A stretch of 64,000 nt of DNA from Blattabacterium cuenoti (GTDB lineage: Bacteria > Bacteroidota > Bacteroidia > Flavobacteriales > Blattabacteriaceae): NCBI RefSeq assembly GCF_014252015.1, contig NZ_CP059206.1, positions 434,001 through 498,000 of the forward strand, given 5' to 3'. Below, piece after piece: positions 171 to 5,663 of this stretch. Position 1 is the stretch's first letter, and each line of letters opens with the position of its first letter. Both the position numbers and the translations under genes were made by a program. The notes under the pieces were generated by a model. That model had not been told where the DNA came from, ran no database searches, and saw only the letters and a program-made list of their open reading frames with translations.

Positions 171-185
171 ATGACATAATGACAT
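171..185. promoter_or_regulatory. Near-copy of the groESL upstream palindrome
   Basis: The sequence ATGACATAATGACAT differs at one base from the perfect palindrome ATGTCATAATGACAT at 3579-3593. It lies between the preceding gene end (155) and miaB (231), the first gene of the transcription unit that includes the sigma-54 activator. I infer a possible autoregulatory binding site. No -24/-12 promoter is visible between it and miaB. Confidence 0.35.
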
Positions 186-230
186 TTTATATTTTTATTG
201 TATATATATGTATATGTAAAAAATACAAAT

Positions 231-1580
231 ATGAAAAAAAAAATTTTTTATATTGAAAATTATGGTTGTCAAATGAACATATCAGATAGTGATCTTATTA
301 CTTCTATTTTATTAAATAATGGTTTTATTTTATCTGAAAACTTAGATCAAGCAAACATAATTTTATTAAATTCTTGTTCTATTCGAGAAAAAGCAGAATT
401 AACTTTAAAAAAAAAATTGGAACAATTAAAATTTTTAAAAAAAAATAAAAAAATTTTGATTGGAATTATAGGATGTTTTTCAACAATAATCAAAAATTTC
501 TTTTTACAAGAAAAAATGGTAGATTTTTTTGTAAATCCTGATTCTTATAGAGAAATACCTAATTTTATTTATTATTCTATAAAGGGAAAACAGTATTATC
601 ATACTCCTAACAAAAATGAAACTTATTCGGATATTAGTTTTGCAAAAACAAAACAAAATAATAATAAAATAACAACTTTTTTAAGCATAACAAGAGGTTG
701 CAATAATATGTGTACATTTTGTATCGTTCCTTTTACTAGAGGAAGAGAAAGAAGTAGTGATCCATATTCCATAATTAAGGAATCTAAACATTTATATCAG
801 AATGGATATAAAGAAATAACTCTATTAGGACAAAATGTAGATTCTTATCTATGGAAAGAAGAAAAAGAAAGTATGATACAAAATAGAGAAAATATTGTAG
901 ATTTTTCCAAACTTTTAGATCTCTTAGCTCAAGAAATTCCCCTGATGAGAATTAGATTTTCTACATCTAATCCTCATGATATGTCCAGTAAGGTATTAGA
1001 AGTTATTTCTAAACATGAAAATATATGTAAACACATACATTTACCTGTTCAATCTGGTAGCAACAAAATATTAAAATTAATGAACAGAAAATATACACGA
1101 GAAAAATATCTTTTTCTGATTAGAAAAATTAGAAATATTATACCTAATTGTTCTATATCTCATGATATTATGACTGGATTTTGTAATGAAAATGAAAAAG
1201 ATCATCAAGAAACTATAAGTTTAATGAATGAAATTAAATATAATTATGGATATATGTTTTCTTATTCACCTAGACCTGGAACTTATGCATATAGAAAATT
1301 AGAAGATAATGTTCCTAAACATATAAAAAAAAGACGATTAAAAGAAATTATTGATTTACAAATCAAACATTCATTTTATAGAATGCAAGAGCATTTGGGA
1401 AATGTAGAAGAAGTATTAATTGAGGGTGAATCAAAAAAAAATAAACAATATTGGTACGGAAGAAATACACAAAATCTAATTGTAGTTTTTCCTAAAAAAA
1501 GCCTAAATATAGGAGATTTAGCTAATGTAGAAATAATAGATACCACATCTGCAACTTTAATAGGAAGAATTTGTAAATAA
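231..1580 (+). CDS. miaB: tRNA-2-methylthio-N6-dimethylallyladenosine synthase MiaB
   Basis: Radical SAM methylthiotransferase that adds the 2-methylthio group to i6A37 of tRNAs reading UNN codons, completing ms2i6A. The N-terminal UPF0004 domain begins with YGCQMN and has further cysteines in NSCSIRE and GCF. The radical SAM motif is CNNMCTFC within RGCNNMCTFCIVPFTRG, and a C-terminal TRAM-like segment ends the protein, so both [4Fe-4S] sites are present. An in-frame TTG exists at 198, but ATG 231 gives the usual start just before the first conserved block and about 449 residues, the normal length. It leads a same-strand run with the sigma-54 activator, lptE and secG. MiaA, which makes its substrate, is also in the window (20747-21678). 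Confidence 0.96.
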   Translation: MKKKIFYIENYGCQMNISDSDLITSILLNNGFILSENLDQANIILLNSCSIREKAELTLKKKLEQLKFLKKNKKILIGIIGCFSTIIKNFFLQEKMVDFFVNPDSYREIPNFIYYSIKGKQYYHTPNKNETYSDISFAKTKQNNNKITTFLSITRGCNNMCTFCIVPFTRGRERSSDPYSIIKESKHLYQNGYKEITLLGQNVDSYLWKEEKESMIQNRENIVDFSKLLDLLAQEIPLMRIRFSTSNPHDMSSKVLEVISKHENICKHIHLPVQSGSNKILKLMNRKYTREKYLFLIRKIRNIIPNCSISHDIMTGFCNENEKDHQETISLMNEIKYNYGYMFSYSPRPGTYAYRKLEDNVPKHIKKRRLKEIIDLQIKHSFYRMQEHLGNVEEVLIEGESKKNKQYWYGRNTQNLIVVFPKKSLNIGDLANVEIIDTTSATLIGRICK

Positions 1581-1591
1581 TGTAAAAAAAC

Positions 1592-2839
1592 ATGGAATCC
1601 GTTTCTATCCAAAATATAAAACAAAAGTTTGGGATCATTGGATATGATTATGCTTTGCATAGAGCCTTAGAAAAGGCTATACAAGTTGCTCCTACTGATA
1701 TTTCTGTGCTAGTTCTTGGAGAAAGCGGAGTAGGAAAAGAATTTATACCAAAAATTATTCATCAATATTCTTCTAGAAAACATCATGCTTATATTGCCGT
1801 AAATTGTGGAGCTATTCCAGAAGGAACAATTGATAGTGAACTTTTTGGACACGAAAAGGGGTCTTTTACAGGAGCCACAAGCATGCGGAAAGGATATTTT
1901 GAAGGTTCTAATGGAGGAACTATTTTTTTAGATGAAGTAGGAGAACTTCCTTTAACTACACAAGTACGTCTTCTTAGAATATTGGAGTCTGGAGAATTTA
2001 TTAAAGTCGGATCTTCAAAAATTCAAAAAACTAATATACGTATTGTTGCTGCTACTAATTTAAATATGATAGAATCCATACAACATGGAAAATTTAGAGA
2101 AGATTTATACTATCGTCTAAATACAGTACAGATTAATGTTCCTCCTTTACGTTTTCGTAAAAATGATATTAAATTTTTATTCAAAAAATTTTCGAATGAT
2201 TTTGCAGAAAAATATCGTATGCCTCCAGTAACATTTACTGAAGACGCTTTAAAATATTTAGAAGATTATTCTTGGCCTGGTAATATCAGACAATTAAAAA
2301 ATCTCACAGAACAAATTTCTGTAGTGGAAACTAAACGTGAAATTTCTATAGAAAAATTAAAAGAATATATACCAGAAAATATACCATCAATATCTTTTTC
2401 TAATCCAAATGTACATATAGAAAGATCTTTTCATGATAGAGAAAGAGATTTTTTTTATAAAATATTATTTGATATGAAAAAAAATTTTAATGATTTGAAA
2501 AATATTACTTTTCAATTAATTAAAAATAATTCAAATACTAGATTTATTGAAGAAAATCAAGAACTTATGGAAAAAGTTTTTGGAAAAATGATTTATAATA
2601 GAGACGATTCTATTTTTCAATTAGAAGATTCCTCTAAATCTGAGGATGATTTAGATTATGAAGAAGTAGAAGAGGATTTATCTAAAAATGAATTGTCTTC
2701 TTTTTCATTGCAAAAAAAAGAAATTGAATTTATTCAAAAAGCTTTGAAAAAAAATAATGGAAAAAGGAGAAAAACTGCAAGAGAATTAGGGATTTCAGAA
2801 AGAACATTATATAGAAAAATTAAACAATATGGTTTATAA
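1592..2839 (+). CDS. Sigma-54-dependent transcriptional activator (AAA+ with Fis-type HTH)
   Basis: Bacterial enhancer-binding protein that remodels RNA polymerase-sigma-54 by ATP hydrolysis. The AAA+ domain starts almost at the N-terminus: Walker A GESGVGKE near residue 45, the sigma-54 contact loop GSFTGA (variant of GAFTGA), Walker B-like TIFLDEVGEL, and the conserved SWPGNIRQLKN. An acidic linker (SSKSEDDLDYEEVEEDL) precedes a C-terminal Fis-like helix-turn-helix ending RTLYRKIKQYG. There is no receiver, GAF or PAS domain, so activity must be controlled through a partner, through its level, or constitutively. It starts 11 bp after miaB and overlaps lptE by 11 bp. groESL, which carries a sigma-54-like promoter, lies about 850 bp downstream. 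The match to this family is firm; control of groESL is inference. Confidence 0.95.
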   Translation: MESVSIQNIKQKFGIIGYDYALHRALEKAIQVAPTDISVLVLGESGVGKEFIPKIIHQYSSRKHHAYIAVNCGAIPEGTIDSELFGHEKGSFTGATSMRKGYFEGSNGGTIFLDEVGELPLTTQVRLLRILESGEFIKVGSSKIQKTNIRIVAATNLNMIESIQHGKFREDLYYRLNTVQINVPPLRFRKNDIKFLFKKFSNDFAEKYRMPPVTFTEDALKYLEDYSWPGNIRQLKNLTEQISVVETKREISIEKLKEYIPENIPSISFSNPNVHIERSFHDRERDFFYKILFDMKKNFNDLKNITFQLIKNNSNTRFIEENQELMEKVFGKMIYNRDDSIFQLEDSSKSEDDLDYEEVEEDLSKNELSSFSLQKKEIEFIQKALKKNNGKRRKTARELGISERTLYRKIKQYGL

Positions 2840-3317
2840 AAAGTTTTTTTTTGTTTTTATTTTCATTTTTTTTATGATTAGTTGTTATCATCCTTCTATT
2901 TCATCCTTTTTTGATATAAAAAAAACAATAGAGATAGGAGAATTTTCAGAAGTAGTTAATATACCTAGGAGATCTTTTTCCTTTGACTTTAAAAAAAATA
3001 TTGAAGATTATATAATGAAGCATAATCCTTCCAATTTGGTACTAAAAAATGGAGATGCTGTTTTGAAAAGTGTATTTTTAAATTATGCTATTATTCCATT
3101 GGAAAATTATCCATTGAAAAAAATTAAGGTTACTGTGAAAATATCTTATAAAGATAATTTTGAACCAAAAAAAAATTGGGAAGAATATTTTGTTGTCTCA
3201 GAAGAGTTTTACAATAAAAAAAATCTTTTTTCAAAAGAAATTATTGATAAAATTATAGAAAAATTAACAATTCAAGTATATCAAAAAATATTTCATGATC
3301 CTAATAATAATTGGTAA
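2829..3317 (+). CDS. lptE: LptE-like LPS-assembly lipoprotein
   Basis: Predicted outer-membrane lipoprotein. A short basic N-terminus and a phenylalanine-rich hydrophobic segment end in the lipobox FMISC, giving Cys18-19 as the acylated residue. The remainder of the 162 residues resembles the Bacteroidetes LptE family, which partners LptD in moving LPS to the cell surface. The family assignment rests on size, lipobox and the position between the sigma-54 activator and secG; sequence similarity to characterised LptE is low. The start overlaps the activator gene by 11 bp, suggesting translational coupling. lspA (37496-38152) would process its signal peptide and kdsC serves the same LPS pathway. 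Confidence 0.72.
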   Translation: MVYKKFFFVFIFIFFMISCYHPSISSFFDIKKTIEIGEFSEVVNIPRRSFSFDFKKNIEDYIMKHNPSNLVLKNGDAVLKSVFLNYAIIPLENYPLKKIKVTVKISYKDNFEPKKNWEEYFVVSEEFYNKKNLFSKEIIDKIIEKLTIQVYQKIFHDPNNNW

Positions 3318-3326
3318 ATAAAATAA

Positions 3327-3572
3327 ATGGAAAATATATCCATAATCATATTCAGTTTTTTTATTATTGTAACATGTCTAATGCTTACATTGATAATATT
3401 AATACAAAATCCAAAAAAAGAAAGTATTCATCAATCTTTTATGGAAAAAAATTTTAGATTTTTTGGAGTTAAAAGGACAAATACATTTTTAGAAAATGTT
3501 ACCTGGTTTTTATCTATTATTATATTTTTTTTAACTCTATTTTTCAATTTTTTACTGAAATCAAAACATTGA
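3327..3572 (+). CDS. secG: Preprotein translocase subunit SecG
   Basis: Small inner-membrane subunit of the SecYEG channel. The 81 residues contain two hydrophobic helices (roughly 4-26 and 58-76) separated by a polar loop with the family-typical IQNPKKE at the end of helix 1 and a WFLSIIIF helix 2. The glycine-rich C-terminal tail of longer SecG proteins is missing, giving a minimal form. It starts 9 bp after lptE. The other Sec genes in the window are yajC (9655) and secE (35555, minus). Confidence 0.88.
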   Translation: MENISIIIFSFFIIVTCLMLTLIILIQNPKKESIHQSFMEKNFRFFGVKRTNTFLENVTWFLSIIIFFLTLFFNFLLKSKH

Positions 3573-3578
3573 ATAAAT

Positions 3579-3593
3579 ATGTCATAATGACAT
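3579..3593. promoter_or_regulatory. Perfect 15-bp palindrome upstream of groESL (candidate activator site)
   Basis: ATGTCAT-A-ATGACAT has two 7-bp arms around a central A. It begins 7 bp after the secG stop and is centred about 76 bp upstream of the start site predicted from the sigma-54-type promoter at 3635-3650. That is a reasonable place for an enhancer-binding activator. A copy with one mismatch occurs at 171-185. The role is inferred. Confidence 0.5.
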
Positions 3594-3634
3594 TTAACTT
3601 TTATTAAATGAATAAAAAATCAATTCTTTTTCAT

Positions 3635-3650
3635 TTGGCATGTTTTTGGC
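3635..3650 (+). promoter_or_regulatory. Sigma-54-type (-24/-12) promoter of groESL
   Basis: TTGGCATG-N4-TGGC matches the sigma-54 consensus TTGGCACG-N4-TTGC, with the invariant GG and GC correctly spaced 12 bp apart. The predicted start site is about 3662, giving a leader of about 31 nt before the groES ATG at 3693. A housekeeping reading is weaker: TGGCTTTG at 3647-3654 resembles TAnnTTTG, but the -33 position holds TTCT. Confidence 0.65.
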
Positions 3651-3654
3651 TTTG

Positions 3655-3670
3655 AACGATTAGAATCGTT
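3655..3670. promoter_or_regulatory. Inverted repeat centred on the predicted groESL start site
   Basis: AACGATT-AG-AATCGTT has two perfect 7-bp arms and a 2-bp spacer. It is centred at 3662-3663, exactly the +1 predicted from the sigma-54 promoter. It could be an operator for a heat-shock repressor or simply a DNA palindrome. It differs from the CIRCE consensus in sequence and in its 2-bp rather than 9-bp spacer. Confidence 0.4.
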
Positions 3671-3692
3671 AACCTTAAAAATTATTTATAAT

Positions 3693-3971
3693 ATGGTGGA
3701 AGTAAAGATTAAACCTTTAGCAGATCGTGTTCTTGTCCAACCTGATCCTGCTGAAACAAAAACATCTTCAGGTATTATTATTCCTGATACAGCGAAAGAA
3801 AAACCACAGAAAGGGACTATAATAGCAGTAGGTAAAGGAAAAAAAGATGAACCTATGATTTTAAAAGAAGGTGATAGAGTTTTGTATGGTAAATATTCCG
3901 GTACAGAATTAAAATGGGAAGGAGAAGAATATCTCATTATGCGTGAATCCGATATTATAGCTATCATATGA
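3693..3971 (+). CDS. groES: Co-chaperonin GroES (Cpn10)
   Basis: Ten-kilodalton lid of the GroEL folding chamber. The 92 residues begin with the canonical [16 protein letters not shown], carry the mobile loop [19 protein letters not shown], and end in the usual [13 protein letters not shown]. It is followed after 48 bp by groEL, the standard operon. Upstream lie a sigma-54-like promoter and two palindromes. Chaperonin is heavily expressed in many insect endosymbionts. Confidence 0.98.

Positions 3972-4013: not shown

Positions 4014-5663
<1,650 letters not shown>

Follow-up and report, generated by a model that had tools for sequence, protein, structure and literature searches.

In F. psychrophilum, the free-living relative that provides the closest described system, sigma-54 (SM4) transcription starts have been mapped at groESL, grpE-dnaJ, dnaK, lon, htpG, and clpB; the accessible part of that paper notes three possible sigma-54 activators, assigns none of them, and gives a different promoter type (SM5) to the activator gene located beside lptE and groES (Guerin et al. 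2021, PMC9723704). A 2025 survey, in the sections available, treats grpE of B. thetaiotaomicron and F. psychrophilum and groES of B. thetaiotaomicron as sigma-54-dependent, citing the Blattabacterium genome paper of Sabree et al. 2009 (PMC12316311). The sigma factors of Blattabacterium have been listed as two in all, RpoD and RpoN, and the same source remarks that Blattabacterium, Walczuchella, and Uzinura unusually keep rpoN, for which it tentatively suggests a link to nitrogen (PMC3971599).

Blattabacterium resembles what the accessible text describes for the F. psychrophilum SM4 promoters in having -24/-12 elements at groESL, grpE-dnaJ, and dnaK, and an activator gene beside lptE/groES. However, that text names no activator and reports no binding site or spacing, whereas Blattabacterium has one activator and at least three target operons. 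The prediction of sigma-54 control for Bacteroidota chaperone genes (PMC12316311) agrees with the results presented here and, in the available sections, is made at the promoter level without an activator or enhancer. Because the F. psychrophilum starts are mapped, the basic claim of sigma-54 chaperone promoters was already known for the order; what is new compared to the available papers is the assignment of the activator, its site, the retained regulon, and the phasing.

Among known activators, the PspF type likewise combines an AAA+ core with a C-terminal Fis-type helix-turn-helix (HTH) and lacks a sensory domain, and PspF AAA+ structures match the Blattabacterium protein, which differs in its linker of about 110 aa, its chaperone targets, and its promoter-adjacent site. 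The enhancer sites of NorR (GTCA-N3-TGAC) have the same half-site and spacing layout as the TGTCA-TNA-TGACA found here, but they form an upstream array at nitric-oxide genes, in contrast to a single promoter-proximal site at chaperone genes. The same chaperone operons are elsewhere controlled by HrcA-CIRCE or RpoH, in place of which positive sigma-54 control is proposed here.

The groESL promoter and its gene neighborhood

The window, i.e., the whole stretch of 64,000 nucleotides that was analyzed (G000:C1:434001-498000), lies within a 630-kb single-contig genome whose gene content is that of a Blattabacterium, and 48 other Blattabacterium genomes were compared. Its forward strand encodes miaB (231..1580; a tRNA methylthiotransferase with the Pfam domains Radical_SAM, UPF0004, and TRAM), which is the first gene of the activator's operon, followed by the sigma-54 activator (1592..2839; a bacterial enhancer-binding protein, or EBP, of 415 aa, recognized by Pfam), an LptE-like lipoprotein (2829..3317; no Pfam match, named from its position and weak similarity to the LptE-like genes of relatives), secG (3327..3572; Pfam SecG), groES (3693..3971; Pfam Cpn10), and groEL (4020..5663; Pfam Cpn60_TCP1). 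The preliminary description of this DNA had proposed that the proximity of activator and target explains the persistence of this gene order. This explanation does not hold, because EBP-lptE-secG-groES-groEL is the ancestral arrangement of many Flavobacteriales families and the same activator should serve the distant grpE-dnaJ and dnaK operons in trans.

Upstream of groES, TTGGCATG-N4-TGGC is located at 3635-3650 (+), 42 bp before the ATG at 3693, within the 17-mer TTTGGCATGTTTTTGGC (3634..3650, +) that constitutes the sigma-54 -24/-12 promoter of groESL, with a predicted +1 near 3662. The element shows one mismatch to TGGCAYG-N4-TTGC. Allowing one mismatch, the window contains one match (0.28 expected), a number that 26 of 100 shuffles reach; as a bare pattern match, the groES element is no better than chance. 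Its significance derives instead from conservation across genomes. The 17-mer is identical in 44 of the 48 Blattabacterium genomes and recognizable in all of them, with a mean pairwise identity of 0.976, compared to 0.61–0.64 for the 25 nt on its 5' side and 0.62 for the four-fold degenerate sites of groES in the same genomes, a difference that implies strong selection on the element. Beyond Blattabacterium, 45 groES genes of other Flavobacteriales were recovered (16 families sampled), and each of their promoter regions has [T/C]GGCA, a run of T, and then a G at position -13. This G is kept throughout (45/45), the C of the -12 GC is often A or T in free-living relatives, and TGA or TGT often replaces the -12 consensus TTGC. 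The GG/GC bases are near-invariant in the 48 Blattabacterium genomes. Two proposals of the preliminary description, a sigma-54-type -24/-12 element at this position and a sigma-54 promoter driving groESL, are borne out by this conservation, by the intact rpoN, and by the neighboring activator gene.

A sigma-70 style scan gave matches at chance level. No terminator was found between secG and groES, so that basal groESL expression could come by read-through from secG. An inverted repeat (AACGAT-TAGA-ATCGTT, 3655-3670) straddles the predicted groES start; it was considered as an operator and set aside, its enrichment being weak (arms of at least 6 in 12 of 48 relatives, about 2.8 expected). One Blattabacterium genome (G009; locus L077, 1650-1930) has an unusually long groES leader, because about 140 bp of AT-rich DNA are inserted between the conserved promoter and the start codon; over a longer extract of this genome, the palindrome described below and the promoter are intact on the 5' side of the insertion.

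RpoN and the single activator

The presence of rpoN elsewhere in the genome, on which a sigma-54 promoter depends, was verified: the gene is intact, with all three Pfam domains (activator-interacting, core-binding, and DNA-binding) and an RpoN-box-like ARRTIAKYR, and was found in 49/49 Blattabacterium genomes. It directly follows the upstream gene, and no sigma-54 site was found at rpoN itself.

The identification of the gene at 1592-2839 as a sigma-54 activator also stands, including the GSFTGA loop, the Walker A and B motifs, the Fis-type HTH, and the lack of a sensory domain. Its Sigma54_activat match scores 217 bits, and the AAA+ match begins as early as residue 15. The loop that contacts sigma-54 (1859..1876, +) reads GAFTGA in most free-living relatives, and the HTH (HTH_8; 2723..2830, +) includes GISERTLYRKIKQ, one of the parts of the protein that vary least across the order. 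The activator was present in 49/49 Blattabacterium genomes and had a match in 94 of 99 sampled genomes of the order, nearly full length in most. The Walker motifs, the G[A/S]FTGA loop, and the HTH are conserved, the HTH being near invariant across the order, and about 110 poorly conserved residues link the AAA+ domain to the HTH. An N-terminal sensory domain was absent from every lineage seen, and members of the order are similar in length. The AlphaFold model (mean pLDDT 68, linker mostly of low confidence) likewise showed no extra sensory domain. Within the variable linker, there is a conserved helical block (approximately residues 284-312) that could be an inhibitor docking site.

The genome has three other PF00158 matches, with scores of 30-35 bits; the one that was inspected turned out to be a Clp ATPase. 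A bona fide sigma-54 activator is encoded at 1592-2839 and nowhere else in the genome, and this protein is very probably the one used at groESL. Given that free-living relatives have 2-7 sigma-54 activators each, this assignment rests on the single activator of Blattabacterium together with its linkage to the promoter. One 95% complete genome (G105) has no activator match and keeps a half-site and a near -24/-12 element at grpE.

Palindromic sites, retained targets, and helical phasing

Two palindromes of the form TGTCAT-N-ATGACA, which do not appear in the preliminary description, are present in the window: ATGTCATAATGACATT (3579..3594, +), the proposed activator-binding site (UAS) of groESL, whose inner half is 43 bp from TGGCA, and ATGACATAATGACATT (171..186, +), upstream of the miaB-activator operon. 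The pattern ATGNCATNATGNCATT occurs exactly at three loci of the 630-kb genome (before miaB, groES, and grpE-dnaJ); one further locus within one mismatch is inside an ORF, and the reversed control pattern has no match in the genome. No -24/-12 element was found beside the miaB palindrome, which probably serves autoregulation of the activator operon. Each of the approximately 30 Blattabacterium loci that extend into this region has the palindrome with no more than one mismatch; some more divergent Blattabacterium genomes did not yield it.

At groES, palindrome and -24/-12 element occur together in 47/48 Blattabacterium genomes. Substitutions in one half of the palindrome are often mirrored in the other (loci L036-L084; TGCCA..TGGCA, TGACA..TGTCA), the pattern expected if a dimer binds. 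When all 5-mer classes are ranked order-wide over the 60 nt upstream of the groES -24 box, TGTCA/TGACA comes first, with 41/45 promoters containing it versus 4.6 expected; no recognizable half-site was found upstream of the free-living groES promoters L173, L290, and L294.

The grpE-dnaJ palindrome (C1:92693-92709) is followed 13 bp further by TGGCAAATCTTTTGC, a good -24/-12 element that had come up independently in the genome scan for such elements. Both are kept in 42/49 Blattabacterium genomes and were lost jointly in the other seven. At dnaK, a variant palindrome (TGGCATAAT[G/C]ATTG) accompanies ATGACTTTTTGTCAT in the 20 Blattabacterium genomes examined, usually with an extra TTGTCAT further upstream. 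In L314, the dnaK palindrome is degraded; this locus (G033:C1:87561 and 88194) also has two perfect palindromes near grpE, about 630 bp apart. The suggestion that Blattabacterium keeps sigma-54 largely for chaperonin expression is therefore upheld and extended from groESL to grpE-dnaJ and dnaK. Consensus scanning alone was not decisive. Most inspected near-matches in the genome lie inside genes: among the 29 of 30 near-matches other than groES that were inspected, only that of grpE is intergenic with half-sites. Of the remaining hits, the dnaK match alone was followed up. The single perfect TGGCACG-N4-TTGC in the genome (C1:358724) is in no long ORF, looks like rRNA, and was discarded.

An unbiased scan of 84,980 species genomes for TGTCATNATGACA-N{6,30}-TGGCANNVNNNTTGC returned 24 hits, 20 of them in Bacteroidota (including Flavobacteriales, Cytophagales, and Bacteroidales). 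Based on the N-terminal sequence of the next ORF, 19 of the 20 are directly before grpE and one is before clpB; the four non-Bacteroidota hits precede unrelated genes or none. Even though gaps of 6-30 bp were allowed, those of the 20 Bacteroidota hits were 10 bp (8 hits), 12 bp (10), 13 bp (1), and 22 bp (1).

In the smallest Blattabacterium genome (G015, 511 kb), the groES and grpE sites are degraded or lost and no clear main-type palindrome is left, yet rpoN, the activator, and the dnaK site are kept; the sigma-54 system may need no more than one chaperone target to persist. A related 345-kb endosymbiont (G064) has kept the activator, the palindrome, and the promoter at groES with a gap of 23 bp.

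The distance between palindrome and promoter varies in a regular manner. In Blattabacterium, the gap to TGGCA at groES is 42-44 bp in 36 genomes, 32-35 in seven, 46 in three, and 12 in one, and the grpE gap is 11-13 bp in 41 genomes. Order-wide, half-sites are found at 12 + 20, 23 + 31, 33 + 41, 43-44 + 51-52, and 53-54 bp from the -24 box, with almost none between those distances. The Rayleigh R at a 10.5-bp period is 0.71 for 66 promoters (reached by 0 of 20,000 random-shift nulls) and 0.69 for the 48 promoters left after removal of within-family repeats; promoters whose nearest site lies beyond 21 bp have this phase by themselves as well (R 0.72, 0/20,000). Free-living groES promoters that fall off this phase have gaps of 19 bp (L183 and L186) and 9 bp (L185). 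In free-living relatives (L176, L179, L261-L264), an intrinsic terminator before groES often contains a TGTCA/TGACA half-site in or near its loop, at a distance of 41-44 bp to TGGCA that keeps the phase of the promoter-proximal site.

This arrangement differs from a distant enhancer that acts by looping from 80-150 bp upstream: the nearest half-site is mostly 12 bp from TGGCA, and the others are one to four turns further. Judged from sequence, the phasing points to an enhancer that is promoter-proximal and face-dependent. With the palindrome next to the promoter (at about -51 to -39), or moved outward from there by whole turns, the activator would approach the polymerase from one side. Dependence on the helical face is familiar from other activators; for a sigma-54 activator, a conserved site adjacent to the promoter is unusual.

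A proposed mechanism and its alternatives

We hold it to be highly probable that the groES element is a sigma-54 promoter within a small, inherited chaperone regulon, run by the activator at 1592-2839 through the palindrome. In this mechanism, the activator would bind TGTCAT-N-ATGACA (half-sites TGTCA/TGACA) through its Fis-type HTH and remodel RpoN polymerase at the -24/-12 elements of groESL, grpE-dnaJ, and dnaK, and the palindrome before miaB would let it regulate its own operon. The site would ideally be centered near -45, or whole turns out from there (about -56, -66, and -77), with the polymerase faced from roughly one side. Because the activator has no sensory domain, a signal may act via its abundance or via a trans inhibitor, as PspA acts on PspF. 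Sequence and comparative data support the promoter, the palindrome, regulon membership, the phasing, and the sole activator as parts of this system; the binding of the palindrome by the activator, the sign of the autoregulation, and the signal are inferred.

The mapped starts of free-living F. psychrophilum and a sequence signature that spans the order argue that sigma-54 control of chaperones was inherited. The idea that it replaced a dedicated heat-shock sigma factor or HrcA-CIRCE control in the endosymbiont, as had been suggested for this locus, is thus not supported. Neither component of HrcA-CIRCE control was found, with no HrcA match in the genome and no CIRCE repeat in the window.

That the groES element is a chance consensus match can practically be dismissed: 0.28 such matches are expected per window, but the element's conservation, both in the 48 Blattabacterium genomes and at 45 further groES promoters, refutes a fortuitous match, and sigma-54 starts of groESL are mapped in F. 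psychrophilum (accessible part of PMC9723704). Somewhat less remote, and still very improbable, is that groESL is expressed mainly from a primary-sigma promoter or by miaB-secG read-through, with the sigma-54 site minor or decaying. Endosymbiont GroEL is often high and constitutive, no terminator precedes groES, and the groES site is degraded in the smallest genome (G015), all of which this explanation would accommodate; it conflicts with the strong selection on the 17-mer (97.6% identity against about 62% at neutral sites) and with the dnaK site, rpoN, and activator that G015 still has.

The most serious competitor, which we nevertheless consider unlikely, accepts the promoters as real and assigns the palindrome to another protein (a repressor or co-regulator), leaving the activator to work from solution or from another site. 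The palindrome abuts the polymerase footprint, which is a usual place for a repressor or a class II activator. However, the palindrome also heads the activator's own operon, the activator HTH is near invariant, and sites are found at +10, +20, and +30 bp besides the adjacent position with the phase kept; such phase-keeping at varied distances fits contact by an activator better than occlusion. With the palindrome read as the activator's site, a wider generalization can be formulated, which we regard as conceivable but would not yet bet on: a Bacteroidota-wide sigma-54 chaperone regulon of heat-shock type might be run by one dedicated sensorless activator from a promoter-abutting site on one helical face, without a distant enhancer or long loop, its activity being set by chaperone supply via a trans inhibitor.

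For the Flavobacterium sigma-54 chaperone promoters, to which no activator was assigned, these results offer a candidate activator and a predicted binding site. The comb of spacings represents a natural experiment on activator geometry, in which dozens of lineages changed the distance by whole helical turns; it suggests that the AAA+ activator contacts the polymerase from a fixed face at close range, a geometry that is directly testable in culturable flavobacteria. For Blattabacterium, service to core chaperones explains why rpoN and one activator were kept despite the loss of most regulation. The present data thus point to chaperones instead of nitrogen as the reason for rpoN retention, and chaperone control may be the last function keeping rpoN in the smallest Blattabacterium genomes.
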